A stretch of 38,187 bases of DNA, from positions 1 to 38,187 of the IMG/VR virus record IMGVR_UViG_3300025120_000184. One strand, given 5' to 3'. This DNA is from a virus. Of this stretch, positions 10,430 through 37,354 are shown one piece after another. Position 1 is the first letter of the stretch; each line of letters begins with the position of its first letter. The notes under the pieces were generated by a model. It saw only the letters and a list, made by a program, of their open reading frames with translations, was not told the DNA's origin and did no database searches. A program made the position numbers and the translations under genes.

Positions 10430-11389
10430 ATGGTACATCCTTGGCGTAGGACAGGAAGTGTTTTTGGAAAAAAGGGAGCGGCTGGCTACCCCGAACAAAG
10501 TGGGGTATACGATTTAAGAAGCCCCTATATAAATTTAAATTTCGCCAATCCAATTGGGGAAATTCAATATCTTACTACGGGAGCGCACGTTTTTACCGTA
10601 CCCCCAAGTGTGACTAATGTTAGCGTTGTGTGTATTGGCGGCGGTGGTGGCGGTCTGTATTATAATAACAGTAGCTCAACCTATACATATAGAATGAATG
10701 GTGGTGGTGGCGGCGGTCTTGTGTATGTACCTTCTTTTGGAGTAATCCCCGGAGCCACGATCAATGTAGCTGTGGGAGCGGCTGGTCAAAGTGGAGCATA
10801 CAGCCAAGGTAGCACGGTGGGGGGTAATTCTTCCTTTGGTCTTTTAACTGCCACAGGTGGAAACCCCGGAAGATACAATGCTAATATAACAGGAGGTGGA
10901 GGTTCAACGGGGGGTTATGCTGGTGCAGTTATTAATGTAGGCGGTCAAAGTCAGGGTACGGGTTCTAATGGTAATGGCCCAGCAGGAGGTGGGGGAGCCG
11001 CAGGATACACCTCAGTCGGCGGCATAGGTTGGAACCGCGCTTCTGGTCAACCCACGTATAGCGGAGATGGCGGTGGCGGCGGGGGCTGGCGCACTGCTAA
11101 TTACAGCAGCCTTGGCGGCGGTGGTGTAGGTATATTTGGCGCAGGTTCTAACGGAACTCAAGGCGGTCCGAATACTCAAGCGGGTAGTGGTTCAGGCGGC
11201 ACTAACCCCACATCCAACCAAGTGGGAGGACTATATGGTGGCGGTGGCGGCGGCAATTCAAGTGTTTTTTCCGGTACTGGTGGCGATGGCGGACAGGGGG
11301 CTGTTAGAGTAATATGGGGCGCGGGGCGCGCATATCCTTCTACTAATACCGCGCAATCTTATAGCGACGGCAACGTCACTATTGTGTAG
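10430..11389 (+). CDS. Glycine-rich tail adhesin-like protein, copy 1
   Basis: 319 residues, preceded by GGGGGGAG. After a head region (GVYDLRSPYINLNF) comes a domain opening FTVPPSVTNVSVVCIGGGGGG and then many Gly-Gly-Gly-x runs. The C-terminus closes GAVRVIWGAGRAYPSTNT. Glycine-rich domains of this type form polyglycine-II sandwiches in phage tip adhesins such as gp38 of phage S16, where variable loops bind the receptor. Here the loops between Gly runs differ strongly from copy 2, while the N- and C-terminal frames are conserved. Receptor binding is thus a fair inference. The Gly runs are coded by varied GGN codons, so they are not simple DNA slippage repeats. Confidence 0.75.
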   Translation: MVHPWRRTGSVFGKKGAAGYPEQSGVYDLRSPYINLNFANPIGEIQYLTTGAHVFTVPPSVTNVSVVCIGGGGGGLYYNNSSSTYTYRMNGGGGGGLVYVPSFGVIPGATINVAVGAAGQSGAYSQGSTVGGNSSFGLLTATGGNPGRYNANITGGGGSTGGYAGAVINVGGQSQGTGSNGNGPAGGGGAAGYTSVGGIGWNRASGQPTYSGDGGGGGGWRTANYSSLGGGGVGIFGAGSNGTQGGPNTQAGSGSGGTNPTSNQVGGLYGGGGGGNSSVFSGTGGDGGQGAVRVIWGAGRAYPSTNTAQSYSDGNVTIV

Positions 11390-11398
11390 GAGTCAAAT

Positions 11399-12382
11399 AT
11401 GAGTTGGCGAATAAATGGGGGACAGATAGGAGTCAAAAGAACATATAATGTCGTTAGCGATGACGGCATATGGGACTTATCCGCACCTTATGACCGTTTA
11501 AATGTTCTCCCTACAGGGGAAGCAGTGTTTTCAGGAACAACAACAGGAACTAGTAGAGTTCTTGCGTGGACTGTACCCGCGGGGGTAACCAATGTGTCCG
11601 TTGTAGTTGTTTCAGGTGGCGGAGGATCAAGCGGTTGTCCCGGTACTAGTAATCTTAGTGCCGCAGGTGGCGGCGGAGGTGCCCTTGCGTATGCAAACAA
11701 TGTAACTGTTACTCCCGGGTCAAATTGTAGAGTAGAGGTAGGTGGGCGTGGAACTAGAGGTACAAATGCTTTTGATATTCCCGGCGGCAATGGAACTCAA
11801 TCACAATTTTATACTAGCGCCACAGCTATACCAGCTAATCTAGCTGTATCCTGTTTTGGCGGCACTGGTGGTAGCCGCGTTGCTGGTGGCGGCGGAGCAG
11901 GAGGCGTAGTTGTTCAAGGTACGGGGGGAACAGGAGGCGTAGGAGGCGATCCGTTAAGTAATAACGGCGGTGGCGGCGGAGGAGGAGCTGGTGGCTATTC
12001 CGGTGCAGGCGGCGATGGAGGCGAAGGTAATAATGGTGTAGGCGGAATCGGAAGTGGTGGCGGTGGCGGAGGGGGAGGAGGGCGTAGCCTCGCAGGCACC
12101 CTTCCTAATACTGGAGGAGGGGCAGTAGGCGTTTATGGTGCAAGCGGCGATGGAGTTGGTGGAGCCACAAACAATCCGGGGGGCGGGGGGTCTGGTGGCT
12201 CTATTGGTACTTCAGAAGGAGGTACTCCGGGGGGAGGTGGCGGTGGAGTAGAAGATGATACGGCTTCGGATGGTCAATTTGGTGGGTATGGCGTAGTTAG
12301 AGTGATATGGGGTCCGGCGCGAACTTTCCCCACTACTAATGTTTCGCTGGCCGCTAGCAATGGCAATGTAACTACTTATTGA
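11399..12382 (+). CDS. Glycine-rich tail adhesin-like protein, copy 2
   Basis: 327 residues, 9 bases after copy 1. It shares with copy 1 the frame GIWDLSAPYDRLN near the N-terminus, WTVPAGVTNVSVVVVSGGG at the start of the Gly domain, and VVRVIWGPARTFPTTN at the C-terminus. The Gly-rich centre has runs of up to nine Gly and is more extreme than in copy 1. Duplicated adhesins with the same frame and different loops suggest either two receptors or a heteromeric tip. There is no reverse transcriptase in the window, so a diversity-generating retroelement is not indicated. Family assignment is by composition and flanking motifs. Confidence 0.75.
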   Translation: MSWRINGGQIGVKRTYNVVSDDGIWDLSAPYDRLNVLPTGEAVFSGTTTGTSRVLAWTVPAGVTNVSVVVVSGGGGSSGCPGTSNLSAAGGGGGALAYANNVTVTPGSNCRVEVGGRGTRGTNAFDIPGGNGTQSQFYTSATAIPANLAVSCFGGTGGSRVAGGGGAGGVVVQGTGGTGGVGGDPLSNNGGGGGGGAGGYSGAGGDGGEGNNGVGGIGSGGGGGGGGGRSLAGTLPNTGGGAVGVYGASGDGVGGATNNPGGGGSGGSIGTSEGGTPGGGGGGVEDDTASDGQFGGYGVVRVIWGPARTFPTTNVSLAASNGNVTTY

Positions 12383-16044: not shown

Positions 16045-18174
16045 ATGGTTGTTCGGCGGTTAGAATTTGTACCCGGAATTAATACGAGCAAAACAAATTA
16101 TTCGCGGCCCGGCGGTTGGTTTTACTCTAATTCAGTGCGTTTTGTGCAGGGGCAACCAGAAAAAATTGGTGGTTCTAGCACGTTAATAACGGGCCAAGGT
16201 AGTACTGCTTTTTTAGGTATAGCTCGCTCTATATGGGATTGGAGTAACTTATCGGGAATACAATATATTGGAGTCGGCACTAATCTTAAATATTATATTG
16301 CAAGAAACAATAGATACTATGATGTAACTCCTATTGACTCTACAGAAACATTAGCGGCTAACCCGTTTTACTCCGTTGCCGGTTCAACACTCGTACAAGT
16401 CACTGTGGCGGATAATTCGTCTCTCAATGTTGGTGATTATATAGGATTTAGTCCCGCGTCTATAACGGGTAATGGTGTTACGATAACCGAATTTGCTGTT
16501 TCCCCTGCGTCAAATGACTACGATTTTTTGTATAAAATTACTGAAGTTCCCGCAGGGTCTACAACTACTTTTGTTTTTGACAGTTTTGACACGGCAAGTT
16601 CTACTGGAACTTTTGGGGGTTCTGGAGTTATAGTATCGTATTTATTACCTTCAGCATCAGCAACAGATACGGTTCTATCTGGGTGGGGAACTGGTCTTTG
16701 GGGACTTGGTAATTGGGGCCATACTCCTGCGGGATCGGTTGAAAATCCTCAACTTATGCGTTTATGGAGCCAAGATAATTTTGGAGAAGATTTAGTATTT
16801 GGTCCTCGTGGAGGAGAATTGTATTATTGGGATACTTCTTCTGGAATGGGTGTTCGGGCAGTTAAATTAAATACTAGGCCCGGAGCGTCCGATGTTCCAG
16901 TGATACAAAACCTTATGCTTGTATCAGACTCGCAACGGTTTACTTTTTGTTTTGGGACTAATCCTGTAGGGTCAACGGATCAAGACCCTTTGTTAGTGCG
17001 GTGGTCTGACCAAGATAGTGCTACAAATTGGACCCCTAGTGCTATTTCTCAAGCAGGAGGGATAGCGTTATCTAACGGAAATAGAATTGTAGCCGCGCAA
17101 CAAGCTAGACAAGAAATACTTGTTTGGACCGATACTGCGTTATTTTCATTGCAATATGTTGGTGTTGACAGTGGCGTATGGGGATTAAATATTGTAGGAG
17201 AAAACATCTCCATAATGTCTCAAAACTCAATTGCGTATTCTAATGGCATTGCGTATTGGATGGGTAATGGGGAGTTTTTTAAGTACGACGGCAGAACACA
17301 GGTCTTGCGGTGCGATGTAAAAAATTGGGTGTTTGACACCCTTAACTCTATTAACCTTCGTAATGGGCTTAATCGTACTCAAAAAGATCAAGTATGTTGT
17401 GGCACTAACGAAAATTTTGGTGAAATTTGGTGGTTTTTTAAAGGCCTAGGCGGTGTAAACAGCAGCGGGGACCCAACCAATTACACCCGCTACAATGATC
17501 GGTATGTGGTATATAATTACGAACAAGATATTTGGTATTTTGGTACTTTTTCTACACCCGGGTCGCTTGTAGACGGGACTAGGACTGCGTGGATAGATTC
17601 TAGAACGTCAAATAGCCCAATTGCCGCCACCGCACCAAATGAAGTATCAATAAGCTTACGTAATGCCGCTGGACTGTCGCAAATCGGGCGTCTAGTACAA
17701 CAGGAAATAGGGAACGACATTGTACAGATTGTAGATGATAACGGAGTTTCTCTTTTTTCGTCGCCAGTTACAGCTACTCAGGTTTTACCCGCAGCTATAG
17801 AATCTACTATGTTTGATTTAGACGGAGGGGACCGGTTTATGTTTGTAGATCGTATTTTGCCCGACATATCTTTTGACGAAAGTAGTCAGAGTACTGCCTC
17901 CGCTACTATAATTGTATCTGCGCATGACACTGCTGGAACAGGAACGCACCCCCCAGTAGGCGGCACGAACGGCGGTATTAGTGCGGTGGTGCAAGTAAAT
18001 AGTCAGGGGTGGGAGTTTACTAATAGTGAATACTCAGTTCGTATGCGGGGGCGTGCCATGACTTTTAGAATATATTCTGATTCTGGTAATTCACTGGGTG
18101 TAAAATGGCATTTAGGAGTTCCTAGAATTAACATACGTGCTGATGGACGAAGGGGAAAAAACGTTGTCGGGTAA
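16045..18174 (+). CDS. Tail nozzle / packaged-DNA stabilisation protein
   Basis: 709 residues, with CGGAG before the ATG. The N-terminus reads LEFVPGINTSKTNYSRPGGW, then SNSVRFVQGQPEKIGG and SIWDWSNLSGIQYIGVGTN. This opening marks a large group of podovirus and marine phage proteins described as phage stabilisation proteins (P22 gp10-like) or tail tubular B/nozzle (T7 gp12-like), with a beta-propeller body. The body has blade-like repeats (FGEDLVFGPRGGELYYWD, RFTFCFGTNP, EILVWTDTALFSLQYVG, GIAYWMGNGEFFKYDG). The C-terminus ends in an arginine-rich stretch (RINIRADGRRGKNVVG). It should plug and extend the head-tail channel. Its order after lysis genes and before ejection proteins is unusual compared with T7 but seen in marine phages. 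Confidence 0.75.
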   Translation: MVVRRLEFVPGINTSKTNYSRPGGWFYSNSVRFVQGQPEKIGGSSTLITGQGSTAFLGIARSIWDWSNLSGIQYIGVGTNLKYYIARNNRYYDVTPIDSTETLAANPFYSVAGSTLVQVTVADNSSLNVGDYIGFSPASITGNGVTITEFAVSPASNDYDFLYKITEVPAGSTTTFVFDSFDTASSTGTFGGSGVIVSYLLPSASATDTVLSGWGTGLWGLGNWGHTPAGSVENPQLMRLWSQDNFGEDLVFGPRGGELYYWDTSSGMGVRAVKLNTRPGASDVPVIQNLMLVSDSQRFTFCFGTNPVGSTDQDPLLVRWSDQDSATNWTPSAISQAGGIALSNGNRIVAAQQARQEILVWTDTALFSLQYVGVDSGVWGLNIVGENISIMSQNSIAYSNGIAYWMGNGEFFKYDGRTQVLRCDVKNWVFDTLNSINLRNGLNRTQKDQVCCGTNENFGEIWWFFKGLGGVNSSGDPTNYTRYNDRYVVYNYEQDIWYFGTFSTPGSLVDGTRTAWIDSRTSNSPIAATAPNEVSISLRNAAGLSQIGRLVQQEIGNDIVQIVDDNGVSLFSSPVTATQVLPAAIESTMFDLDGGDRFMFVDRILPDISFDESSQSTASATIIVSAHDTAGTGTHPPVGGTNGGISAVVQVNSQGWEFTNSEYSVRMRGRAMTFRIYSDSGNSLGVKWHLGVPRINIRADGRRGKNVVG

Positions 18175-18352
18175 TGATTTAATAGTAGAGTTTCGCGCTC
18201 CTGCGTTGGGGGTAGCCGCTAAAGAGTATAATCAACAGTTGGAAGAACAACAGTTAAACATCTTGCGTCTCTACTACACTAGGATAGATAATGCGCTGCG
18301 AAATAACAGTCAGGCGTTACAATCGCAAGCTATGGGATGGTATATGAGCTAA
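18164..18352 (+). CDS. Small coiled-coil protein after the nozzle gene
   Basis: 62 residues from a TTG start that has AGGGG eight bases upstream and overlaps the nozzle gene by 11 bases. An ATG at 18143 or a GTG at 18137 in the same frame would add 7 or 9 residues but have no ribosome site. The sequence is SGNDLIVEFRAPALGVAAKEY, then a helix EQQLNILRLYYTRIDNALRN with heptad character. Small proteins of this plan ('lp..p.eYd.q....l.r.l...f..i') accompany tail nozzle or fibre genes in several marine phages. It may be a short adaptor or trimerisation helix. The function is unknown. Confidence 0.55.
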   Translation: MSGNDLIVEFRAPALGVAAKEYNQQLEEQQLNILRLYYTRIDNALRNNSQALQSQAMGWYMS

Positions 18353-18663
18353 TGTCTAATAGATACGTAAATGCAAAATTAAAACTAGACACAACAGGTA
18401 CTAGAGATTTGTATACATGCGCAGAACAAACCACCGCGATAATAAAATCTATTAGCGTGTGTGATTTTTCTGGCAGCGGAGATACTATTTCAATATTTAT
18501 AAAAAATGGAACGCCCGTCTACGTTCTCTTTGTTAAGGCAATTACCGGTACATTAGAGTTGTTAACAGCTCCGTTAGTGCTAAACACCGGAGATATACTA
18601 CAAGTCACCGCTGCAACTGCAAATAGATTAGATGTAGTCGCTAGTGTTTTAGAAATTACTTAG
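18352..18663 (+). CDS. Small beta-rich virion protein
   Basis: 103 residues. The ATG at 18352 overlaps the preceding TAA by one base; an in-frame ATG at 18337 lies further inside the upstream gene and is less likely. The protein is nearly all beta strand (AKLKLDTTGTRDLYTCAEQT, AIIKSISVCDFSGSGDTISI, GTLELLTAPLVLNTGDILQV). Its plan of strands and length are like those of the protein at 10062, though sequence identity is low. Both resemble small tail-associated proteins of marine phages. The two Cys (about residues 22 and 35) could pair. No function is known. Confidence 0.6.
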   Translation: MSNRYVNAKLKLDTTGTRDLYTCAEQTTAIIKSISVCDFSGSGDTISIFIKNGTPVYVLFVKAITGTLELLTAPLVLNTGDILQVTAATANRLDVVASVLEIT

Positions 18664-18698: not shown

Positions 18699-18986
18699 AT
18701 GAACTTTTTAGACCTCTTCGATGCTTGTGTAATCGAAACCAACCCGCGTCCAGACAAATATACAAAACCAACATCTTTAAATATAGGCCTTAGTGAAGAA
18801 GACATTGGGCTAGACAGTCTAGACGTTACACTTGTCCTTGTACTTTTGTTTGAAATCTATGGGATACCAGAGACAGAAGATTTTGCTGTACCTACTACAA
18901 GCTTAGGCGCGGTTTGCGATTTTATGCACAACAACAAAACTAAAGATTTTGACACAGTATCCGCGGCTATGGAGGCTGTAACATGA
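18699..18986 (+). CDS. Acyl carrier protein
   Basis: 95 residues, with AGGTG before the ATG. The signature is EEDIGLDSLDVTLVLVLLFE: Ser40 in the DSL motif is the site for the 4'-phosphopantetheine arm, and the following helix (ValThrLeuValLeu) matches helix II of type II ACPs. IYGIPE, PTTSLGAVCDFM then match the end of helix III and the 'T.g...d.i' helix. The N-terminal ~30 residues are less typical, with a Cys and Pro-rich turn. The arm would have to be added by a host holo-ACP synthase, since none is seen in the window. The stop overlaps the next gene's ATG (ATGA). The neighbour is a ketosynthase, so the pair should carry and extend an acyl chain. Alternative: an ACP-like domain used only for protein-protein binding. 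Confidence 0.85.
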   Translation: MNFLDLFDACVIETNPRPDKYTKPTSLNIGLSEEDIGLDSLDVTLVLVLLFEIYGIPETEDFAVPTTSLGAVCDFMHNNKTKDFDTVSAAMEAVT

Positions 18987-20098
18987 TATACTTATCTAAA
19001 CTTTTTAGTACCTCAACAACCGCAACCACACTTGTAAATGATGTACCGTTTCCGCAACATGCGCATATCATACCTAGTACTTTTAGGCGCGCTAAATCGG
19101 GATTAAAATATCCTCCGCATACATTATTAGAAACTGTAGTTACAAACGAAGCAGTAGAGTATGTGTTAAATAATCCAGTAAAAGGCAAAACAGGATTTAT
19201 ATTTGCCGCAGGTAATCAAGGCTGGATGGGTAATAATGGTCGATATGATAAAGATGATACTACTGAACTGCACTACAAAGTAAAACTGCCCTTTATTGTG
19301 CTTACCAATATATACGCAGGTCGTATTGCAAGTATATTTCATGTCCACGATCATGTATCTACAGACGCTAGCGCCTGCGCTTCAAGTTTAAAAGTTATGA
19401 TGGACGTGCAAAATCTAATGAATAATTTTGATTTTGACCGCGTTATTGTGCTTACTGGAGAAGACTCAGTTAACAATCTTACATTAGAATTTTTTGGCGA
19501 GGCTGGGGCTAGTTTACAATACAAAGACGAAGAACACACACGCCCGTCTGCTTTCGATAGTAGCAACCAAGGATTTTTTCTAGGGCAAGGTGCAGCTTTG
19601 TGTATATTTGAAAAGGATCACAGGGGACTAGACAATCCCGAGGCCGCGTTTCTTGGGGCGTACACGTCTGCAGAAAACAACACAAATCCCCTTGGACAAC
19701 GACCTGATGGCGAAGGTTATTCTAAAGCTATTGAAGGCTCCTTACGTGTGGCAGGGGTACGTAAGGAAGATATACAGGTGGTAAAAAGTCATGGGACAGG
19801 CACAGAGGTAAACAACAGGGCAGAAAAAACGGCGCTACAACGTAGTTTAGGAGAGTTTATGGCTACATCTTACAAACAACGTATAGGTCATACTATGGGG
19901 GCTAGCGGGTTATTAGAAACGGGGCTGTTGCTTAATGATTTAAAACGAGGTATTGTTCCGAAAATCCTCAATAGAACTGAACACGATGATGTGTTTTTGT
20001 CCTATGATGCGTCTGCTCCAAATAAAGGAGCGTTTATAAGTTTAGCTGCAGGTATGGGTAACGTCTATTCAGCAGCTATATTTTCGACAGGGATGTAG
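18983..20098 (+). CDS. Beta-ketoacyl-ACP synthase (thiolase fold)
   Basis: 371 residues, ATGA overlap with the ACP gene. The thiolase-fold ketosynthase triad is complete. Cys132 lies in VSTDASACASSLKV (family 'D.aCaSs..a'). His270 lies in VVKSHGTGTEVN ('.aHGTgT'), with Glu281 nearby in AEKTAL. Lys298 and His303 lie in KQRIGHTMGASGLLE ('K...GH..gAsG'). GQGAALCIFE and GAFISLAAGMGNV match the late beta strands, and GMGN replaces the usual 'NsFGFGGtNa' loop. It is about 40 residues shorter than FabF, with a shorter and divergent N-terminus (residues 1-70). It should condense an acyl or malonyl unit on ACP and extend a fatty or polyketide chain. Codon use and gene packing look like its phage neighbours, so it is a settled phage gene. 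FabF, FabB or PKS-like subtype cannot be decided by eye; an intact triad argues against a decayed copy. Confidence 0.88.
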   Translation: MIYLSKLFSTSTTATTLVNDVPFPQHAHIIPSTFRRAKSGLKYPPHTLLETVVTNEAVEYVLNNPVKGKTGFIFAAGNQGWMGNNGRYDKDDTTELHYKVKLPFIVLTNIYAGRIASIFHVHDHVSTDASACASSLKVMMDVQNLMNNFDFDRVIVLTGEDSVNNLTLEFFGEAGASLQYKDEEHTRPSAFDSSNQGFFLGQGAALCIFEKDHRGLDNPEAAFLGAYTSAENNTNPLGQRPDGEGYSKAIEGSLRVAGVRKEDIQVVKSHGTGTEVNNRAEKTALQRSLGEFMATSYKQRIGHTMGASGLLETGLLLNDLKRGIVPKILNRTEHDDVFLSYDASAPNKGAFISLAAGMGNVYSAAIFSTGM

Positions 20099-20101
20099 AT
20101 T

Positions 20102-20566
20102 TTGGAAGTAATTGATAGTAACGAAAGAAAATTATCTCCCCCCGAAATAATTATAGCTGCGTTAAGTAATCTTGGGTCGGGAGACTACACTCCGCAAGAA
20201 GGATTAACTTCTATAGCGGTAGAAATAGATCAACCAAACACAGATTTATTAGAGATAGGTAATACTGTTTTTATTGGTCACAGAGGTACGGGTAAAAGCA
20301 AACATAAAATGTGGGGTAGAGGACTTACCGTAGATACAGCTCAAAATTTTATATCCGCGGGGTTGAAATATTTTACCCATCTGCAAGAGTTGGGCATTAC
20401 CCAATACATTACTGAATACGATGGCGCGGTGTATGATAGCGCGTTTAAAACGTGGAAACGTTACGGAGATCGTGCAGATACTAAGATAGCCGTAGGTAGA
20501 TTATCTGACGGAAATTCAAAAGCTTTTGTTGAATTAGGTGTAATTCCTTTATCTGAGGTAATGTAA
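20102..20566 (+). CDS. Unassigned protein with weak GNAT acyltransferase-like pattern
   Basis: 154 residues from a TTG start, with CAGGGA eight bases upstream; no nearby ATG is in frame. The likely order is beta strands (LTSIAVEID, LEIGNTVFIG), then a strand leading to a helix (MWGRGLTVDTAQNFISAGLK), a strand after LQELGITQYITEYD, a helix (VYDSAFKTWKRYGD), and finally GRLSDGNSKAFVELGVIP. The last part resembles the 'N..A...yeklGF' end of GNAT enzymes, but the P-loop-like RGxGxA motif is missing. The position between nozzle and large internal proteins is that of T7 gp13 (internal virion protein A), often annotated as GNAT-like. It could therefore be an acyltransferase using the ACP, or simply an internal virion protein. 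It overlaps neither neighbour but sits 3 and 1 bases from them. Confidence 0.45.
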   Translation: MEVIDSNERKLSPPEIIIAALSNLGSGDYTPQEGLTSIAVEIDQPNTDLLEIGNTVFIGHRGTGKSKHKMWGRGLTVDTAQNFISAGLKYFTHLQELGITQYITEYDGAVYDSAFKTWKRYGDRADTKIAVGRLSDGNSKAFVELGVIPLSEVM

Positions 20567-20567
20567 T

Positions 20568-23500
20568 ATGTCGGCAGCAATAAAAATAGTTAAAAAAGTA
20601 TTTAACAAAGCTGTTGATCTTGTCCAAGATGTAGTGGGCGCTGTTGGAGACATGGCTGATTGGGTCATGGATGAAATAGTCGATCCGGTTTTTGACGCGA
20701 TACAAGACGTTGATTTATGGGACGTAGTTAAAGTTGCCGCCGCTGTATACGCACCATGGGCTATACCCCTTATTTCAGGGGCAGAAGCAATAGATCAAGG
20801 TGGTGATCTTGGAGACGCTTTTAAAGCCGCTGCAATTTCTTACGTATCGGCTGAAGCTGGCGCTATGGCTGGGGATTATGTGGGGACTGCTGTAGGGGAG
20901 GCTACGGGCAGTCAAATAGCTGAAACAATAACAACCGCGGCAATTTCAGGGGGTACTAGAGAATCTATAGGCGCAATAGCTTACGGAGAAGACCCTTTTG
21001 AGGCCTTTATTGCAGGAGGTGTAAGTGCGGGATTGTCCGCGGCAATGGGTGAGGTTGATACACTTACTGGAGCCAAACTTGAAGGAGTAGTAGACGAAGT
21101 TACTGGGAAAACTATTGTTCAACAAGTAGGCGGCGCTTTCTCTAAGCTTCCTCCTACAGCGCAAAATATTATAAAAGATTCTCTTGCGGCAGTTGCTACA
21201 GGACAAGATGTTGATGCAGGAGTTCTCGCTGGGGCTATAGCAAGAGCACATGTAACCACAGACTTAGTAAGCGCCTTTATTGGGGATAACGTAGACTTAG
21301 AAGCCGCTGAAATTGCGGCAATTACTTTAGCCGTTCAACGTTCTGCCGCCGCCGCTGCATCTGGCGGTTCTATATCTGATGCAGTAATGCAAACAGTAAC
21401 TCAATATGGGCAAAATGAGTTTAATAAAGTTGCAGGAGAAACAGTTAGAACTGGAATTAATAAGGTATCAGGGGCGTATCAAAATTTAACGGAAGCGGTT
21501 GATAATATAGACGCCACGGGCGCAGAACGTATGGCTGTTGCGGAAAAATACAACACGTTAAAATTTGAATATGATGCTGCTTACGAAGTAAGAAGGGCAG
21601 CTAAAGAAGATTTTGATGATGCCAAAGCTAACTTTGAAGCAAACCCCACATTTTTAAATCAAGAAATTGCAATGGCCGCTAATGCGGTTCAAAAAGAAGC
21701 GGATAACGCTTTTTCTAAAGTATATGACGAGATACTGCCACAACTTGAACCGCTTGAACTTGAATATGATCGCCTAAATGATTTAATTCAGACGTATGAA
21801 GTAGACCTTTCCGCTGCACAAGACGAGCTAGTATCAGGCACTTCGTTAATGAGCGAAGAGTTTGTTCCCCTGTTTGGTGCTATAGACAAGGCTTTTGTCT
21901 TAGGTATGGTTCCTGATTTTGATGAGGAAAGTTATAGAAAATTTAACAGTATTCCTGAAGGTGAAGACGCTTATTTTCATTGGTTAACTATTGGTAAAGA
22001 TGAAAATTTACCTACAAACGAAACTGAATACGAAAACGCATTTAATCGTAGACGCACGCAGTTAATAAATCAAACATTAGGTAGTCAGTTTCCGGGTTTA
22101 ACTATTGCTAGTATTTCAGAAAATGAAGTTAAGCGTGTTATTAGTAATATAGATGAAAAGTACTCAACTTTAGCCGAACTTAACGATGCTTCATATGTAG
22201 ATATTGCTCAGCTAATGTTGCAAGACGCTGGAGAAGCGTTTGTACAAAAATGGAACCACACAGCATATAATACTTGGGCTGAAAACAACCCTGAGCTTGT
22301 TCCAACTGGCGGGGGTGTAGATAAAAAATTAGACGAAGATGGTAGAGTAATAGTAGAGTTTGCCGCTAACACCACTCTTACCCCAGAAATAATGGACCTT
22401 TTGGGGCGCTTAGACCCTACTTATATACCTGACGGTATGGAAGGCGAACAATTAACTGACGCCGAATTATCAATTTTAAACTCCGCTATGAAACCGCCGA
22501 CTGCAGCACAAGAGTTTGTGATAGATAGTTTGTCTCTTGATCAAGAGACAGCCGCAATGGCGATAGCAAGTAATCAAGCAAGTGTTCAATTAAGCCCTAA
22601 CGGACTTAAAAAATGGGGCGAAACAGTATATAAATCTCCTGAGTGGAGCGAAAAATACGGGCAAATGGTGTACCGTTACGAATACACTCGGGTAACTGGT
22701 GGTGTTTTACAAAGCCAAAGCGAGGAGTATGCAGGTACCGGTATAGGAATTTATAAAGACGGAGAAGATACAGGTCAGGTAGGAGTACTGTATAAAACTC
22801 TTGATAACGCTACATGGTTAAACGCAGGTAATCCTGATCTTATAGATTTTGAAGACAGTTCACTTGCCGATGCAGGACTAACGCTAAAAGAAATTAAAGA
22901 CGCTGACCCTACTCAATTTTCTACTATAGCGGCGGGATTAATAGATTTTAATGACGCTGTTGGACAGGCTGGAGCAGATGTAAAAAATGCCCTAGTAGAA
23001 AATTATGGGGATGCAGTTTACGAAGGTTTAAGAAACGTTAAGGTTTGGACTGAATCAGAGCACAACCAAGAAGATGACAGCAAGAATTGGTATTTAGACG
23101 CCGTAGGGTCTGCAACTAAAGGCGTTGGGGGTATACTTGAATTTACCAACGATGCTGTAAGTTTAATGTTAGGGTATGACCCTAATTCTGGTTCCGCTAT
23201 TAAAATGGCAAACGCTATTTCTAATTTTGGTGGGGACATAACGTCACAAGCGTTTAAGGATCAAGTAAAAGTATCATCTGCTAATGTAGCAAACGCGGAA
23301 GGGGCTTATGCTACTTTATTAGCGTTTGGCACAGAAATTACCGATACTAACGGTTCGTATTTAACTGCTATTGTTTTTGAAGAGTTATCTCAAGAATTAT
23401 TACCTGCGTTAGTTACTCGCGGTACATCCCTTTTTACTCGGGGACTTGCTAAAGAAAGTCTTGAGCAGTTAGGGCAAGAAGTAGCAACTAAATGGGCTGA

Positions 23501-25598
23501 TGATCTTGCGCTAGGGGCAGGCGCAGCTACTGATATTATAGAGTCGTTTGGTGGTTCTGCTGGGGGTATGTATGATGAATCTTATGATTACCTTATTGCA
23601 GCGGGTTACAGCGAAGATGAAGCTGAACTTTTAGCTTATGATAGAGCTATAGCGTCTGGTACTGCCGCATCAGTATTTACGTTGGGGTCTTTTGGTGTTG
23701 GTGGATTAGACTACGATAAATATATACTTGGTAGAACAACTAAAAGCGCCGAGGGAAATGTACCTTGGACTGAGTTTACTCAACGTGTAAGTAATAACGC
23801 GTCTATAGTAATAGGTGAAGCTGGGTCTGAAGCTTTAGAAGAAGGCGCGTCTACCTATGTTGACGAACTTATACTGCATGACCTTGATCCTGATAGAGAT
23901 ATTTGGGGTAATGTAGCTGCGGGAGCGGCAATAGGTGCTGTAGCAGGAGCGGGTACTGTCGGCGGTGCTATGGCTGTCGGGAGTATTTTATCTAAAACAA
24001 ACTCTACAATACATAACATTGTTGCAAATGCCCCTCCTACCCCAGAGGGAGCTATCGCCGCTGGAGAGCAATTAGCTGCGGCAGGCTTAACAGATTCTGT
24101 AATAACTAATAATATATTAAACGAAATAGCCCCTGATTCATATACTTCTACCGCGGATGTACAATATTTATTTAAAGAAATTAACCCTGATTACGTAGGG
24201 TCTATGGAAGAGTTTGAATCTTTTGTTGCTTCAGGTTCTCCTACTGATAGTAACCAAATAGACCCCATTAAAGAATATATAGACGAAAATTATATTGATA
24301 TAGACGAAGTTAAACTTGCGGCAAAAGCACAAGGTATAACTTTAGACGATGAACAAGCGTTAGCGTATGTACAACAGATAAATCAAAAAGAAGCCGAAGC
24401 TGCAATTACTGCCGAGTATAATCCGCAAGGCACTACAGAAGCTGAACTTATGGCTGCTTTTGAACGCCTCGGGTATACAGACGAAGAAAGAGATCAGTTT
24501 ACCTACAGCGCAAAAAATATCTACATGGACAACACCACGCCCAGCCCAAGAACTCTTTTGCGTAGAGAGCGGCAGCGGGACGTTGAGAGATTAGAAAAAC
24601 TCAAACAACTAGAAATTGACCAGTTTACGGGGGCAATACGTGATGATGAGTTAGACGAGCTATTGTTTGGGTATGTAGACCCACGCCAGTTTACGCAAGA
24701 AGAAAAAGATGCTTATATAAAAGAATTAGGGTATACCCCTGAAGGTGATGAGTTAGACGAGCTACTGTCACCGTCTAATTTTGATATGGGTCTAAATGTA
24801 GAATACGAAAAACTTGCCAAACGAGAGCTTAAGCAGTTTATAGACCCTTTTGTAGTTGATGCTAATGAAGCTAAAAAAGCTTATGAAGACCTTGGACTTT
24901 TTGATGTACAACAAGGTGATATTGACAAACTTACTGGGCAATATTCTGAATCTGAAGTTGCGGGAAGGGCAAAAGATAACCTTACAACGGCGCAACTAAA
25001 CAGTGTATCAGCATTATTAGGTAAACCTGAACGGTTTATTACTGACGCTGATATTAATTTTATAAGTGATTTGCTCGCACAGGATGCCGCGATTAGTGAG
25101 ATACAAACATCAAAATATGATGTAACTGGGGATTCTTTAGTGGATCAAGCGGATATTACTGCAATGCAAGGTGTAATAGATTCTGATGCAGACGCACAAA
25201 CTGAATTCTATAATACCCTAAATACAACTAATCCAAATAGTGTGTTTGGGGCAGCAACAGGCATAAACGCGGCTTTAAATACGCAAACAGATTTAAATAC
25301 TGATTTAAATACGCAAATAAATACATTAATAGACACAAATATTACGCAAAGACAGCAAGAAAAAGAAGCGGAAAAAGAAGAAGAAATATTTGATATGGTA
25401 TCTCAAAAGGGACGTGGGTCTGCATCAGAAGGCGAAATAGCCAAAATAGATTACATTTACGACTTTGAAGATATGCTAGCTAACCCCGAACAACGTAGTA
25501 AATATGCGTTTAGTAGCAACAAAAAACCTACTTTTTCTACGGGTGGACAAGTTATGGGTGAAAATGATATACTATTAAAGTTAATTGGAGAGAATTAA
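20568..25598 (+). CDS. Large internal virion / DNA-ejection protein
   Basis: 1676 residues. The first ~250 residues are Ala/Gly-rich helices with membrane-like character (VAAAVYAPWAIPLISGAEAI, FIAGGVSAGLSAAMGEV). A charged helical part (~300-430) resembles a coiled coil. At ~450-490 is FDEESYRKFNSIPEGEDAYF, then WLTIGKDE, similar to 'YL..NPDV......a..Hy...G..E' repeats. A Glu/Gly-zipper helix pair is at ~1080-1150 (GSEALEEGASTYVDE, AAGAAIGAVAGAGTVGG). At 1518-1529 is a dockerin-like loop, DVTGDSLVDQAD. The C-terminus ends KPTFSTGGQVMGENDILL. It has the size and composition of ejection proteins that enter the envelope on infection. No transglycosylase Glu motif could be assigned with confidence. 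The position fits T7 gp14-16-type genes. Confidence 0.6.
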   Translation: MSAAIKIVKKVFNKAVDLVQDVVGAVGDMADWVMDEIVDPVFDAIQDVDLWDVVKVAAAVYAPWAIPLISGAEAIDQGGDLGDAFKAAAISYVSAEAGAMAGDYVGTAVGEATGSQIAETITTAAISGGTRESIGAIAYGEDPFEAFIAGGVSAGLSAAMGEVDTLTGAKLEGVVDEVTGKTIVQQVGGAFSKLPPTAQNIIKDSLAAVATGQDVDAGVLAGAIARAHVTTDLVSAFIGDNVDLEAAEIAAITLAVQRSAAAAASGGSISDAVMQTVTQYGQNEFNKVAGETVRTGINKVSGAYQNLTEAVDNIDATGAERMAVAEKYNTLKFEYDAAYEVRRAAKEDFDDAKANFEANPTFLNQEIAMAANAVQKEADNAFSKVYDEILPQLEPLELEYDRLNDLIQTYEVDLSAAQDELVSGTSLMSEEFVPLFGAIDKAFVLGMVPDFDEESYRKFNSIPEGEDAYFHWLTIGKDENLPTNETEYENAFNRRRTQLINQTLGSQFPGLTIASISENEVKRVISNIDEKYSTLAELNDASYVDIAQLMLQDAGEAFVQKWNHTAYNTWAENNPELVPTGGGVDKKLDEDGRVIVEFAANTTLTPEIMDLLGRLDPTYIPDGMEGEQLTDAELSILNSAMKPPTAAQEFVIDSLSLDQETAAMAIASNQASVQLSPNGLKKWGETVYKSPEWSEKYGQMVYRYEYTRVTGGVLQSQSEEYAGTGIGIYKDGEDTGQVGVLYKTLDNATWLNAGNPDLIDFEDSSLADAGLTLKEIKDADPTQFSTIAAGLIDFNDAVGQAGADVKNALVENYGDAVYEGLRNVKVWTESEHNQEDDSKNWYLDAVGSATKGVGGILEFTNDAVSLMLGYDPNSGSAIKMANAISNFGGDITSQAFKDQVKVSSANVANAEGAYATLLAFGTEITDTNGSYLTAIVFEELSQELLPALVTRGTSLFTRGLAKESLEQLGQEVATKWADDLALGAGAATDIIESFGGSAGGMYDESYDYLIAAGYSEDEAELLAYDRAIASGTAASVFTLGSFGVGGLDYDKYILGRTTKSAEGNVPWTEFTQRVSNNASIVIGEAGSEALEEGASTYVDELILHDLDPDRDIWGNVAAGAAIGAVAGAGTVGGAMAVGSILSKTNSTIHNIVANAPPTPEGAIAAGEQLAAAGLTDSVITNNILNEIAPDSYTSTADVQYLFKEINPDYVGSMEEFESFVASGSPTDSNQIDPIKEYIDENYIDIDEVKLAAKAQGITLDDEQALAYVQQINQKEAEAAITAEYNPQGTTEAELMAAFERLGYTDEERDQFTYSAKNIYMDNTTPSPRTLLRRERQRDVERLEKLKQLEIDQFTGAIRDDELDELLFGYVDPRQFTQEEKDAYIKELGYTPEGDELDELLSPSNFDMGLNVEYEKLAKRELKQFIDPFVVDANEAKKAYEDLGLFDVQQGDIDKLTGQYSESEVAGRAKDNLTTAQLNSVSALLGKPERFITDADINFISDLLAQDAAISEIQTSKYDVTGDSLVDQADITAMQGVIDSDADAQTEFYNTLNTTNPNSVFGAATGINAALNTQTDLNTDLNTQINTLIDTNITQRQQEKEAEKEEEIFDMVSQKGRGSASEGEIAKIDYIYDFEDMLANPEQRSKYAFSSNKKPTFSTGGQVMGENDILLKLIGEN
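24644..24764 (+). repeat. Direct repeat coding for DELDELL
   Basis: The 19-base sequence tgatgagttagacgagcta occurs exactly at 24644-24662 and 24746-24764 in the same frame of the 1676-residue gene. Both copies encode the acidic helix DELDELL, followed by FGYVDPRQF in the first and SPSN in the second. It suggests a small internal duplication of a helix-turn unit. Confidence 0.7.
25274..25317 (+). repeat. Short Asn/Thr-Leu tandem repeats
   Basis: tttaaatacgcaaa occurs exactly at 25274-25287 and 25304-25317, with a shorter third copy tttaaatac at 25292-25300. In protein this gives LNTQTDLNTDLNTQ near the C-terminus of the 1676-residue protein. It is a small repeat likely made by slippage or duplication and is continuous with a Glu/Lys-rich helix. 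Confidence 0.65.
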
Positions 25599-26680: not shown

Positions 26681-27556
26681 ATGGCTGTAGAATTAGATGA
26701 CAAAGGCAATCCGATTGACACCGGAAGTTCTGAAGTATTAGCTGATTGGGTTGGTGATTACGCTACCGACATGTTGGCTGAAGGTAAAGCGGCGGTTGAC
26801 GCTGGTTATGAAGCCTATACGGGGCCGTTAACCGCAGGGGTAAGTGATACTCAAACAGCAGCATTTGAAGGTGTTGCTGGATTAACGATGCCAACAGACA
26901 CTGAAATGGGCGCGTTTAACCCCCAAACTTTTACAGCAGATAACGCGCAACAATATATGAACCCCTATCTTGACGCTGCCTTACAGCCGCAGATAGACGC
27001 GGCAGTTAGAGATTCAGAAATACAACGGTTAAAAAACAATAGCAGGTTAACTCAAGCAGGCGCATATGGCGGGTCTAGACAAGCTATTATGGAATCTGAA
27101 GGTAATCGTAATTTATACGATAGGGTTGGTGCTTTACGCTCTACGGGCTACGCCGATGCTTACGATAAAGCTATGAGTCAATTTAATACTGAACAATCAG
27201 CCGGACAAGCTGCTAACACTGCTAATAATGTTTACGGGCTAGATGCTTTACGTCTGCAAGGAGATTTGGGCGCAGAAGAACGAGCTATTACTGCAGAAGG
27301 TGTAGCCGCGGATAAAGCGCAGTTTGAAGAAGAACGGGATTATGATTTTCTTACTACTCAGTTTTTGTCCTCCTTGTTACAAGGCTTGCCTACATCTGCC
27401 TCACAGACAGATTTTGAAATTCCTAGTCAATTGGATTTAGCTACAATGACCGCTAGTGATTTTGAAGCATGGGCAAAGAATTTTACCGGTGACCAAGTTG
27501 GTGAAATTATTGAGGATGTTACAAGTGGCGAAACTAGCGCAGGAGTAACCTCATGA
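26681..27556 (+). CDS. Internal virion / ejection helper protein
   Basis: 291 residues, with AAGGAG before the ATG. After an acidic start, residues ~85-165 read NAQQYMNPYLDAALQPQIDA and later RLTQAGAYGGSRQAIMESE. This 'YMnPYl...l.pq...a.r........qaGayGGSRqaimeae' module is one of the most common in marine podo- and siphovirus structural regions, usually labelled DNA transfer or internal virion protein. The rest is helical (YADAYDKAMSQFNTEQ, LGAEERAITAEGVAADKAQF). No membrane segment or enzyme motif is visible. It probably forms part of the head-interior ejection complex with the proteins on each side. ATGA-type overlap with the following gene. Confidence 0.7.
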   Translation: MAVELDDKGNPIDTGSSEVLADWVGDYATDMLAEGKAAVDAGYEAYTGPLTAGVSDTQTAAFEGVAGLTMPTDTEMGAFNPQTFTADNAQQYMNPYLDAALQPQIDAAVRDSEIQRLKNNSRLTQAGAYGGSRQAIMESEGNRNLYDRVGALRSTGYADAYDKAMSQFNTEQSAGQAANTANNVYGLDALRLQGDLGAEERAITAEGVAADKAQFEEERDYDFLTTQFLSSLLQGLPTSASQTDFEIPSQLDLATMTASDFEAWAKNFTGDQVGEIIEDVTSGETSAGVTS

Positions 27557-30044: not shown

Positions 30045-33000
30045 GTGGCAATTTACACATTAACTGACAAACGCACTGGTAATTCTTACGAAGTAAACGC
30101 CCCGATGGGGTCTAGTAATGCTGAAGTGCGAGAAATATACAATAGTAGTATTCGTGCTGCGCAATCGGCTAAAGAAAAAGCGCCTATAAACAATATTCGT
30201 GCTGCTATGCAATCGCAATCTGAAGATGTGCTTGAGCGTGCAAGAGTATCTAAAGCAGGGGCATTAGATTACCTTGGTGAAATTCCAAAAGGACTTGCTA
30301 GTGGCGCAGCAGGTTTTGTAGAATCTAGTGCATTAGGTTTAGCCGCGCTTATGCCCGATGGCTTTGAAGATTCTATAGTTCGTCCCGCAATAAAAGCAGG
30401 TGGTAAAGCAGTACAAGATTATCTTTCCCCCGATGTTGGGATTGGTAATAGTATTCCTAGAAAAGTTAGTGAAGCCACAGGTTCTTTTTTAGCTCTTGGA
30501 GGAGCGTCTTTACTCCCGGGAGTTGGTACAGCGGCTGCGGCTACTATGGCTGTATCTGCGGGAGCAGGGGAAGCAAGTGAACGCGCAAGAGCGGATAATG
30601 CTAATCCTGATGATCGTTTTTTAGCGTCTGTATTAGGAACTATTCCCGGTGCATTAGAACTACTCCCTATTAAATTTGTTAAAGTCATTAGCGCGGGAGA
30701 AAAAAGAGAATTAGGAAAAAGTTTAATACGTATTACAGAATCTGCTGGAGTAGAAGCCGCACAAGAAGCGGTAGCGGCTGTAGGTCAAAACCTTATTGCG
30801 CAACAAGTCTACAAACCAGATCAAAAATTAATCGAAGGGGTAGGAGAACAAGCGGCGTTAGGCGCTTCTGTCGGTGCGATTATACAATCTACTATAGAAG
30901 CTTTTCTGCCTAGAACACGTGGTGGGGCTGATAATACTACGAATACTCCGCTACAAATTACTGATCAAAGAGGTGGGATAGCAGGATTACTTCCTTCCCC
31001 AGCAATGAACGCTGAATCTGATGCAAAAACAAAAGCGGCAGGTGGTAGGCGACAAGCCACCGCAGATATAAGTAGAATATTAAACACAGAAGACGAAGTA
31101 ACTCTTGGAGAAATGCAAGACATTGTATCCCGTACTGGAATAACATTACCAGAACTTGATACTATTGTTTCGGCTGAAATGGGCAAACGTGGAAGTAGGT
31201 TTGCGGCAAACGCACAGGCCGTGGCTGAAGATGAAGCAACTACACCAGATATTGTACCTACTTCAACGCGCTTGTCTCAAGCAGTACAAGACGCCCTAGG
31301 AGGCGGTTCCGCGGTGCAGGGCGCTGCACGTAGGCGGCAAGAACAAAACGCGTTAGAACAAGATAATGTAGCCGCGTTTGAACAACCTGATTTGTTTGCT
31401 GCAGAATTAGAAGCCGCGCAAAAAACAAACCCTGAAGCGGCTGCAAAAGACGCTAGACAAACTCCCGAACCTACACCTGATATGTTAGGACCAATAGATT
31501 CAGGTAGGGGGTTTAACCCTGAAACTGATTTAGTTGACCGTATCGCTGCGCTTAAAGCGCAAGAAGATAACGCAACTGTACGCCGCAATAATGCTAATGC
31601 ACGCGAAAAAGAACAAAGTTTTACAGATGCAAAACCGCTTATGGATGCAGCGGCGGCAGCTCCCCGTGAACAAGCTCAAGCTCGACGTGATGCAGTAGTA
31701 AATAAATTATTAGCCGCATCTAACACCACTAGCTATACTAACACAGAAAAAAGTTTACTCCGTGGGTTGCAGACTGCAGGTATGCCTCAACCACTTACAG
31801 ATAAAGAAAAAGAAGCCGCAAAAATGCGGGTGAAAGAAATTAAACAGGGGCGAGTAGTACCCGATAATACTAAAGCTGTATTTACGCCGCCAAATAAAAT
31901 TGGGCCAAGTATTCCTTCTGCAAATGAAGAGCAGTTTGTTTATGAAAGCGAGAACAATGATTCAATTGACCCCGCAACAGGTAGAGGCCGCGTTTCAGAT
32001 TCTGCACAAAATGGCGCTCGGACAAGACCCAGCAGTGATCAAGAAACAAATCCCGTCAACCCTGTTCCACCTAGAAAGGAAGGATTGGGACCACCTGTGT
32101 CTGGCGCTGGAAGCCCTCCTACAGGAGCAAAGCCAAAGCCAGATTCATTAGGTCAATTCTCGTTTAATTTAGGCGATACTCCTACAAAACCACGACAAAG
32201 CCCACAGCAACCTTTAGTTACGCCAAATACAAACGAAGGAAATCAACAATCGTTTGTTTTTCCTGAAGGAAAACTTGATCCACGCGCCCCTGACACAATA
32301 AACAAAGCCGCGGTGTTAAAAAATATTTTAGCGACAGGCGGTGTTGATGGGGCTGTTTTGTTTGATGTTAACCAACGTAAAACGAATAAATCTACTCCTC
32401 CCCCTAAACCTAAAAAACCTAGAACGAGTAAATCTTCTGGGTTGTCTCCTTACGACAAACAAAAAATAGAGCAAGCGGCAGCACGAAAAAAAGCGGCGTC
32501 TTCTCCTGCTGTACCTACCCCTGCAGTAAAACCTGCTCCTCCCCCTAAACCTGAAAAAACTACCGACGAAAAAATACGTACTCTATACGCAGAAGAAACT
32601 CCTAAAGCGGTTAAAGAGGAATTTGGAGGAGGAAACGTAGAAAAAACTACTAACCCGTTTAGCGAAGCGGATAACAAAAAAATATTAGAGAAAATATTAT
32701 CTGGCTTTAACAAAAGCGACAAAGGCAAAAGAGATGTTGCCCCTATTATTGCGTATTTACAAGCTTACGAAAATCCTTTTGACGGTATAAAAATGGCATT
32801 AACTGATTTAGCCGTTAGCACACCTATAACAGAAAACTCCCGTATAAACGATCCTATTGCGGCTAGAACCGCCGAAGCGCGTAAATATATGGGGGGAAAA
32901 CCAGCAAATAAAAGAAATACAGCTCCTGCGCAAAAAGTAATTGATTGGGCAAGAGCCACACTAAGTAAAGATGCAAACGAAAAAATAAACCGAGCACAAA

Positions 33001-36000
33001 AAGATATAGCTAATAACGCAAAAAGACTTGTGTTTGATAATCGTGGCCCAGATAGAGTTGTTGTTGCATCCGAAAAGAAATTACTTAACGATAGGCTGCA
33101 ATTAGAAGCTGCAGTTCTTTCAAGCGCAGTCAACCCACAAGAATTAGTAGACAAATACCCAAAACTATACCCTAATGTAGAAGCTGTAGAAAAAGCTATG
33201 GCAGAAGAAATGGAAACTTTTGGGATACGTGCGCTTGAACTTGAAACAGACGCAGTTGGTTTGGATATTTTAATTCACCCAGAAATAGAGCAATCCATTC
33301 GCGGAAGCGATTTGGGCAATACGCTATCGAAAATTTCGACATTTCATCCCAGCAAAATTATTCGTGGTTTGGCTGAAGTTTACCTAAAATTAAAAGGTAC
33401 AACCAAGCTCGTCATAAAGAAAAACCTCAAAACAAAAGACGGGCGTCGGGTAGCAGGGATGTTTGATCCCACTGATAACATAATATACTTAGATGCTGAC
33501 ACTGGTATCAATTACCACACGGTAATGCACGAAATGACCCACGCGGTTACAAGTGCCGAAATATCTAACCCTAAAAATGTAGCTGCTAAACAGTTACAGG
33601 AACTACTAGATAACATCCAAGACAGTTTAGGTACAGCTTACGGGGCCAAAAACATTAATGAGTTTGTAGCTGAGGCTATGAGCAACCAAAAATTCAGGGA
33701 AGAACTCTCTTCTATAAATACTAATGGTGAGCCTATAACCGCTATGCAGCGGTTTATGAATATCGTTAACAATTTCTTAGCTAAGATCACCCAAAAAATA
33801 CCGTTTATAAAAATAGCCCCTAAATCATTATCGTCTTTAAATGAAGTGGATAATCTAGTTACAGGGTTACTCGCAGTCGCGCCAGAAAGCAGACATGCGG
33901 AACAACTTCTTATGGACAGCACCGCGGGGGGCGTAAAGAAATTCTACGACACCGCAATCCTAAAGACTAAAAAAACTATAGACAAAACTAGCCGAGAGGA
34001 TTTTAAAAACAACGCTAGTGAGTTTTTAACTTGGGCGGGAGAAGGTTCTAGAAGTATGTTTTTGCGGTTGTTGGGATCGCAGAGCCTCGCGGATGTAGCA
34101 GATAAGGCGGGGTTTAAGCGTCTTGGTTATGTACTAGACGAAATAATGGGGAAACAACGTGGTGAAATCGCGCTTGAACACGCAAGCGTAAACAATGCGA
34201 TTACCAAAATGCTGAAAAAATTGGGTGCGGGTACGGCAGAAACCGCGTTTAAACGCAGGGAAATGTTAGACGATATTATATATAGTTCTGATTACGGGGC
34301 TACAATATTCCAAGTGGACCCTAGCAAACCCAAAACCGCGTACACTAAAAAAACAGGTAAAGGCAAAGGTAAGTCTTTACTAGACAAAGACGGTAACGAG
34401 TTACTGCCTATATGGGAAGCACAACAAAAAATATGGAACGATCCTGCCTTTGGCAAAGAAGGTAGAGAAGTATTCAATGAAATGCGTGCAGTTTACAAAG
34501 ATCAGTTTAGAAAGCTACGTAAAGTTATCTTAGGGCAAATAGACGAATTAGTGACGGACAAAAAACAAGCCGATAAACTCAAAAACCAAATATTTGCTAA
34601 ACTCTTTGACCGCGCAGAGTTAGACGTTTACTTCCCCCTTCTGCGTGAGGGCGAGTATGTATTACGTTATGAGGCTAAAAATCCTAAGAAGCCAAGCCAA
34701 GCACTGATACTGCAGACGTTCGCTACTAAACGTGAAATGGAAAAAGCAAAAGAATTCTTAGCGGGTACGAACTTATATAAGAACATAAACGAGGCAACTG
34801 ATTTAACAAACAAGAACACTTGGAAAAAGAGTAGCTCTGCGGCAAATGTAGACCCCAGTTTTGCCCTTCAAACACTAGAAATACTGGATAGGGCGCGGAT
34901 GAAAGACCCCGCTGACCCAAACAACACCACAAAAATACCGCAAGATGTTAAAGAACAAGTTATGAAGTTGTTTGTAAACTCCTTGCCTGAAACTTCTTTT
35001 GCTAAGTCTATTCAGAAACGAAAAGGCACCCCCGGATACATGCGTGATTCTGTGTTTGCTGTAAAATCTAAGGGGTACGGATTAGCAAGCCAAACAACTA
35101 AATTTAAATACGGGGCTATACTCCGCAATTACGAAGCTACGGTGCGCGATGAAGCTAAAAAACTTAAAGATGTAGATAATAAGAGCGGCAGAGTTTTCGG
35201 GCGTGGCAAAGAGAAATTTCGCACGGCGCGTTTTTTGGAAAACAACTTAACCGCCCCCATTAACGATATAAGAGATGAGTTAATCGGGCGTGCAAAATTT
35301 GCGCGTGTAGGAGCATCTAATAAAAACTTTGAGGCTTGGGGTAGAAGAATTAACCAGATGGGCTTTATCTGGACAATCGGGTTTAACACCTCCTCCGCAC
35401 TGGTTAACCTATCGCAAATACCACTATTCGTTGCCCCTTTCCTCGCGGGAAAATACGGACTGTCTAAAACTAACGCCGCCATACAAAAAGCTTACGGTAA
35501 TGTATTACTAGGTGGTACAAGAGGTGGAAGTATAAACACCATCACTAATTTCTACGATGTTGTCCTAAAAAAGGATAAAGATGGTAACGTGGTTGAAAGG
35601 GAATTTGTACTCCGCAAGGACTTAAAAAACCTACCTGAAGGCCGTGAAGCAGAACTAAAACGCATGGCATTATTAGTAAAAACTGCTTCGGATCGTGGGT
35701 TGTTAGGTACTAGTATGTTAGCGGAAGCTATGGGGCTTGATGAAGGCGCTATGGTAAGTAAAAACTCTACATGGTTTCAAAAAGCAGGGAACGTGGCAGA
35801 CAAAACCGCGGTGTTCTCTGCATTTATATTTAACCACGCGGAACAGGCTAACCGTCAAGTAACGCTAATGTCTTCGTTTGAACTAGCTTTAGACGCCATA
35901 ACAAAAGGCAAACCCGCTAACGCAACGGACGCTCAAATAGAGGAAGCGGTTAAACGGGCTATCCACGATACTCAGGAAACAAACGGGGGTACTTTTCTGG

Positions 36001-37108: not shown

Positions 37109-37354
37109 TCATGTGGTTCTCCATATGCGAAGCCCAAAAACGTTGCGTGAACGCATTTTTTCTACTGCTACGCGGGTTTTTATAGTCCAACACCGCTTTA
37201 CCGCCATAGTTTGCACCTGCGCTTTTGCTTTCGTAGTATTTATACATGGTATAAACACCGAAGAACCTACTCCCATAGCGTCCCAATCTACAGCAATCCT
37301 AACTTCATCGGGGGTTAGATCACTAACCCTAAGCGGTTTCTGATGTACTGCCAA
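37109..37354 (-). CDS. Small phage protein downstream of the helicase gene
   Basis: 81 residues. The start is the TTG at 37354-37352, with GAGG ten bases upstream; an in-frame stop lies two codons further upstream, so no longer start exists. It overlaps the helicase stop by 26 bases. It reads SDLTPDEVRIAVDWDAMGVG, then SSVFIPCINTTKAKAQVQTM and a C-terminal VFGLRIWRTT. The plan 'vdWd.m.vG.SvFiPc.nT.ka..q......r.w......v.e.....GvRiWRt' matches small proteins found beside phage replication genes, of unknown function. The terminator 74 bases on ends this transcript. A plus-strand ORF covers the same bases but has no supporting features. Confidence 0.65.
   Translation of the reverse strand: MAVHQKPLRVSDLTPDEVRIAVDWDAMGVGSSVFIPCINTTKAKAQVQTMAVKRCWTIKTRVAVEKMRSRNVFGLRIWRTT

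Follow-up and report, generated by a model that had tools for sequence, protein, structure and literature searches.

Hundreds of uncultured genome fragments, mostly from tailed phages, carry intact genes for an acyl carrier protein (ACP) and a β-ketoacyl-ACP synthase (KS) between their tail and DNA-ejection genes. We analyzed this pair in a 38,187-base IMG/VR virus record (hereafter the window, meaning the whole of this stretch) and in its relatives, where it is commonly followed by a third gene encoding a protein with a predicted GNAT-like fold. The protein families involved were already known, whereas the ACP-KS-GNAT arrangement appears to be new: a search of the open literature, with subscription papers and preprints outside its scope, found no description of this gene set in a phage virion block. 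The result is a widespread and strongly conserved phage family with known enzyme chemistry, encoded among ejection genes, for which the searchable literature describes no role. The analysis suggests that viruses possessing these genes make and attach a fatty-acyl group of their own during infection.

The upstream gene of the pair (18699-18986, plus strand) encodes a 95-aa ACP, with the phosphopantetheine serine, Ser40, located in an LDSLD motif. This assignment is based on the DSL serine and on profile homology, as the window protein alone is too divergent to match any Pfam family in a single-sequence search. The PP-binding family PF00550 was weakly matched by 11 of 30 ACP relatives (best E-value 0.0032), the NCBIfam ACP equivalog scores the window protein at 20 bits against a cut-off of 70, and no match to it was found in the phage collection. 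The ACP family profile retrieved exclusively ACPs among the 60 PDB matches listed (best 1.7e-5), and it matched a small set of bacterial ACPs in a profile-to-profile comparison by hhalign (probability 96.4, E-value 1e-9). Ser40 is retained in all 174 ACPs of the family alignment.

The downstream gene (18983-20098, plus strand) shares an ATGA stop/start overlap with the ACP gene (18983-18986, plus strand) and encodes a 371-aa FabF-type ketosynthase, a member of the β-ketoacyl synthase superfamily. The protein matches the N- and C-terminal ketoacyl-synthase families PF00109 and PF02801 with 44.9 and 69.1 bits, respectively (gathering score 20.8). It also matches the NCBIfam fabF model TIGR03150 (4e-32), with a score of 111 bits that is under the curated cut-off of 493.75 and would place it outside the FabF equivalog. 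A further NCBIfam match, to the AmcF acyltransferase subunit (6.8e-25), is likewise under its cut-off. A sequence search of PDB retrieved FabF structures, and the structure model (pLDDT 88, pTM 0.91) adopts the FabF fold, with TM-scores of 0.77-0.82 to the best FabF structures. In an alignment to E. coli FabF, the residues Cys132, His270, Lys298 and His303 correspond to the active site Cys163, His303, Lys335 and His340 (mature numbering); Met358 stands at the position of the gate residue Phe400, and the phage protein lacks a portion of the N-terminal region of FabF. The first-pass annotation had given exactly the outer boundaries of the pair and its ATGA overlap, had named Ser40 in the DSL motif, and had proposed a Cys132-His270-His303 triad accompanied by Lys298. 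It had allowed that the Cys and His sites might fail to align in a structure prediction; they hold up both in the FabF-fold model and in the alignment.

Relatives of the pair were collected by a viral-contig scan (80 loci), a profile scan of IMG/VR (at least 546 KS relatives) and a third scan that added more; conservation was counted in 174 loci plus the window. The four catalytic residues of the KS are invariant in every locus whose contig extends over them. The ACP gene lies directly upstream of the KS gene in 173 of 173 testable loci, the contig end cutting the site in the remaining one (L206), and the two genes overlap by four bases (ATGA or GTGA) in 171 of these 173. Pairwise dN/dS values are mostly 0.03-0.1 for the KS, with one pair at 0.15, and mostly 0.04-0.18 for the ACP; those of the large protein encoded downstream are 0.1-0.5. 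Together, the conservation and the dN/dS values indicate that the ACP-KS pair is not a chance association. In some pairs the dS of the KS is lower than that of its neighbors (0.42 for the KS and 2.16 for the GNAT gene between the window and L004), which suggests recombination. The pair thus proved to be the intact type II set that had been postulated, free of decay, and the anticipated co-occurrence in other phages was borne out, mostly at the same position. The further expectation that homologues at this locus are not degraded holds in general, with the exception of a single KS, in L298, described below; degraded copies are therefore not the general state.

The first-pass annotation had called for a tree, and one of 84 rows groups the phage KSs into a single clade (support 100/99) that a long stem sets far apart from bacterial KSs. 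Because its bacterial rows were chosen by pattern and it contains long branches, it leaves the nearest bacterial sister unplaced. One bacterial contig inside the phage clade (L113) was discarded, as it looks like a chromosomal fragment and a long-branch artefact. In a scan of genome contigs only L083 reached 50 percent among the matches listed, the others being at or below 34 percent. A relative in a Balneolaceae MAG contig was set aside as an indication of a bacterial host, since it may be a binned phage contig. GenBank contains one good relative (MW202545, 51.6 percent), without a described function, and PHROGs 35856 and 14581 include relatives whose function is also undescribed. The pair, whose novelty the first-pass annotation had left pending a database search, was thus already represented in databases.

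The first-pass annotation overlooked the third gene (20102-20566, plus strand). Its start is usually 1-2 bases past the KS stop, and it is present in 73 of the 81 first loci. The gene encodes a 154-aa putative acyltransferase that matched no Pfam family. Its AlphaFold2 model (pLDDT 92.5) retrieved GNAT acyltransferases as the Foldseek list in PDB (probability 0.99-1.00, best E-value 3e-4, TM-scores of about 0.4-0.6), and the order of its structural elements agrees with the GNAT core. The model therefore supports a GNAT-like fold well and does not extend to a family assignment. The CoA-loop motif [QR]xxGx[GA] is missing from the window protein, and a pattern search detected it in 4 of 155 GNAT-fold proteins. 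The invariant residues are E41, G53, N54, T55, D78 and F115, with no histidine among them. One of the BFVD fold matches bears the name internal virion protein A.

The genes around the cassette point to the late structural block. Upstream is a homologue of the tail nozzle, or packaged-DNA stabilisation, protein (16045-18174, plus strand; phrog_3287, virion structural protein, 2.6e-50), whose relative in MW202545 is annotated as a phage stabilization protein; a nozzle gene precedes the pair in 80 of the 81 first related loci. Between them lies a gene for a 108-aa protein (18337-18663, plus strand). In many phages that possess the GNAT gene without ACP or KS, the gene just 5' of it resembles this one by eye, and thus the 108-aa protein gene would mark the insertion point. 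Downstream, adjoining the GNAT gene, is a gene for a 1676-aa protein (20568-25598, plus strand), a candidate acylation target or ejection protein without a Pfam match. Its N-terminus looks hydrophobic or amphipathic, and similar valine-rich, amphipathic-looking N-termini were seen by eye in many relatives. The same inspection by eye of these N-termini revealed no evident invariant lysine, uniform N-terminal residue or any other fully fixed residue, and the idea of a conserved target lysine was dropped. A putative DNA ejection protein follows (26681-27556, plus strand; weak match to phrog_4287, DNA ejection protein, E-value 0.0011). The late-gene position proposed earlier is therefore supported in most loci, and it fails in L078 and L214, where the pair lies beside an SNF2-type helicase gene; these two loci rule out a strict virion-only linkage.

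A scan with the GNAT-fold protein revealed three gene states: GNAT alone, ACP-GNAT and ACP-KS-GNAT. The 165 distinct GNAT proteins are distributed among them as 31, 12 and 122, respectively, with nine state changes on a FastTree tree. No KS without an ACP was found among the GNAT-scan loci, save L206 at its contig end. In L298 (3970-4395) a large internal deletion leaves a 42-residue KS remnant, with the ACP and GNAT ORFs intact. L289 and L302 encode close GNATs, the former with an ACP gene and the latter with none, so the ACP gene was recently either gained or lost.

Loci with ACP and KS and no detected GNAT gene are mostly cut by contig ends; the contig continues in L078, L210, L214, L215 and L220. 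These contigs are short, so that a GNAT gene may lie elsewhere in the same genomes. In L214 (8009-11038) and L078 (1907-4982) the helicase gene is upstream of the ACP gene and a gene for a protein of about 100 aa is downstream of the KS gene; the nearby genes include a primase in L214, and an exonuclease and ribonucleotide reductase in L078. The protein of about 100 aa is also encoded downstream of the KS in L210, L215 and L220 (upstream genes were annotated for L214 and L078 alone). A search for larger contigs of the helicase-block type found none. The pair beside a helicase gene without GNAT argues that ACP-KS is a unit of its own, and that the partnership with GNAT is common and not obligatory at this site.

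Several known systems share parts of this gene set. The KS and ACP have in common with bacterial FabF/KAS II (TIGR03150) and AcpP the fold, the Cys-His-Lys-His residues, the ACP partner and the DSL serine; they differ in scoring 111 of 494 bits (KS) and 20 of 70 bits (ACP), in the missing N-terminal part of FabF and in the Phe400 to Met358 replacement. The bacterial systems also include functions for which no genes were detected in 19 phage contigs ranging from 42 to 66 kb, as PF01648 (AcpS), PF00698 (FabD type) and PF13561 (FabG type) had no matches there; the same search gave matches in a Balneolaceae genome and in controls. A phage-encoded full fatty-acid synthase is therefore unsupported in these contigs. 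The third protein can be compared with the acyl-ACP-dependent protein lysine acyltransferases HlyC/RtxC. RtxC enzymes are GNAT-fold proteins that use acyl-ACP, and ApxIC is devoid of CoA-contact elements (PMC8339906), so that a GNAT-like fold without the CoA loop and an association with ACP are shared. However, the catalytic histidine (His23 in HlyC) has no evident counterpart among the invariant residues of the phage protein, and RtxC relies on the host ACP, whereas the phage genes bring their own. T7 gp13 (PF11090, internal virion protein) is likewise small, and its gene lies between those for the nozzle and the ejection proteins, but sequence homology to the phage GNAT was undetectable (hhalign probability 0.1, no Pfam match), and it was rejected as a homologue. 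In Rhodobacteraceae prophages fabG-acpP-fabF were called and a lipid role proposed (PMC8224337); that set follows the E. coli fab operon order and includes FabG, in contrast to the ACP-KS order in a virion block observed here. Lone phage-encoded ACPs are reported for R22Y (PMC11705849), vB_EliS-R6L (PMC5463345) and R16F (PMC10152775), with no KS mentioned in the parts of these sources consulted.

We tentatively favor the explanation that these genes form an acyl-transfer cassette acting late in infection, in which the GNAT-fold protein would deliver a chain, condensed by the KS with host-made holo-ACP, to a late or virion target, similarly to HlyC-type acylation. The phage ACP would receive its phosphopantetheine from the AcpS of the host. 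An acyl group taken from the host would be loaded onto the KS and joined there to malonyl carried by this ACP, both reaction and substrate being presumed, and the β-keto group of the product would stay unless reduced by host enzymes. The GNAT-fold protein might then pass the acyl chain to an amine on some late or virion protein, possibly the 1676-aa protein encoded next, with its membrane-active-looking N-terminus. Such a chain could promote membrane engagement by the ejection machinery or by a different late protein, as HlyC/RtxC do for protoxins. The intact and selected enzyme and carrier, the coupling of ACP to KS with the GNAT start close behind, and the nozzle gene upstream are all in line with this explanation. 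A GNAT-like fold makes the third gene the obvious candidate for the acyl-transfer step, particularly in view of the shared features with RtxC, including the shortage of CoA-contact features in both the phage protein and ApxIC. ACP-GNAT pairs without KS point to a GNAT that uses ACP; the nested gene states and the locus that lost most of its KS and kept ACP and GNAT also agree with the cassette, and the lack of AcpS, FabD-type and FabG-type genes in the 19 contigs speaks for something other than a full synthase. Against the cassette stand the few phages with ACP-KS and no GNAT gene in the contig, where GNAT is not always the partner, and the at least 31 distinct GNATs without ACP or KS, which must have a function independent of the pair. 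By TM-score the fold match is moderate, the invariant residues include no counterpart of the HlyC catalytic His, and no fixed acceptor residue is evident by eye in the next protein. The stricter claim that ACP, KS and an ACP-using GNAT are complete for lipidating a virion or ejection protein, a tail or ejection function needing the acyl group, is possible and rather doubtful.

A metabolic role is a strong rival because of the helicase-adjacent pairs without GNAT, although we consider it, too, doubtful. The KS and ACP would divert or lengthen host acyl chains through host FabG, FabZ and FabI and alter membrane lipids during infection, the late-block position reflecting timing only. Both proteins are parts of fatty-acid synthesis, they also adjoin replication genes, and phage or prophage acpP and fabF have been proposed as lipid auxiliary metabolic genes (PMC8224337; PMC11705849). 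However, the very long stem between phage and bacterial KSs is unlike a recent capture of a host gene, the altered gate and shortened N-terminal region depart from FabF, and the strict pairing with its own ACP and usual coupling to the GNAT gene fit a metabolic role poorly. LuxI and FeeM are GNAT-fold enzymes that form N-acyl molecules from acyl-ACP, and the KS resembles AmcF; by analogy, ACP and KS, with or without GNAT, could yield an N-acyl or β-keto product acting on the host, on a superinfecting phage or as a signal. Such small-molecule synthesis is unlikely, as no further biosynthetic genes were recognized beside the pair and most loci lie in the late structural block. That same block, and the Pfam name "probable scaffold protein" of the position-equivalent T7 gp13, would suit ACP and KS as assembly factors without catalysis, but a scaffold needs none of the catalytic residues that are all invariant here, the nucleophilic Cys and the Lys among them, and we regard this role as very improbable.

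If a virion protein is indeed lipidated by the cassette, the finding would bear on how ejection proteins of short-tailed phages enter and cross membranes; if the role is metabolic, it would represent a phage-specific branch of lipid synthesis that split from bacterial KSs long ago. Under either reading AcpS, ACP, KS and GNAT make up a directly testable set of enzymes.

Several other genes of the window were also matched. A truncated ORF at 2-325 matches the co-chaperonin Cpn10/GroES (PF00166, 2.9e-9), and a gene for chaperonin 10 also lies upstream of the capsid gene in MW202545. Two neighboring ORFs (10430-11389 and 11399-12382) both match phrog_4474, with weaker matches to tail fiber assembly, and are likely tandem paralogues. 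A 2319-aa ORF (30045-37004) weakly matches Large polyvalent protein associated domain 39, scoring 26.2 bits against a cut-off of 27, and an ORF on the minus strand (37329-38186) matches phrog_25314 and, more weakly, DNA primase/helicase.
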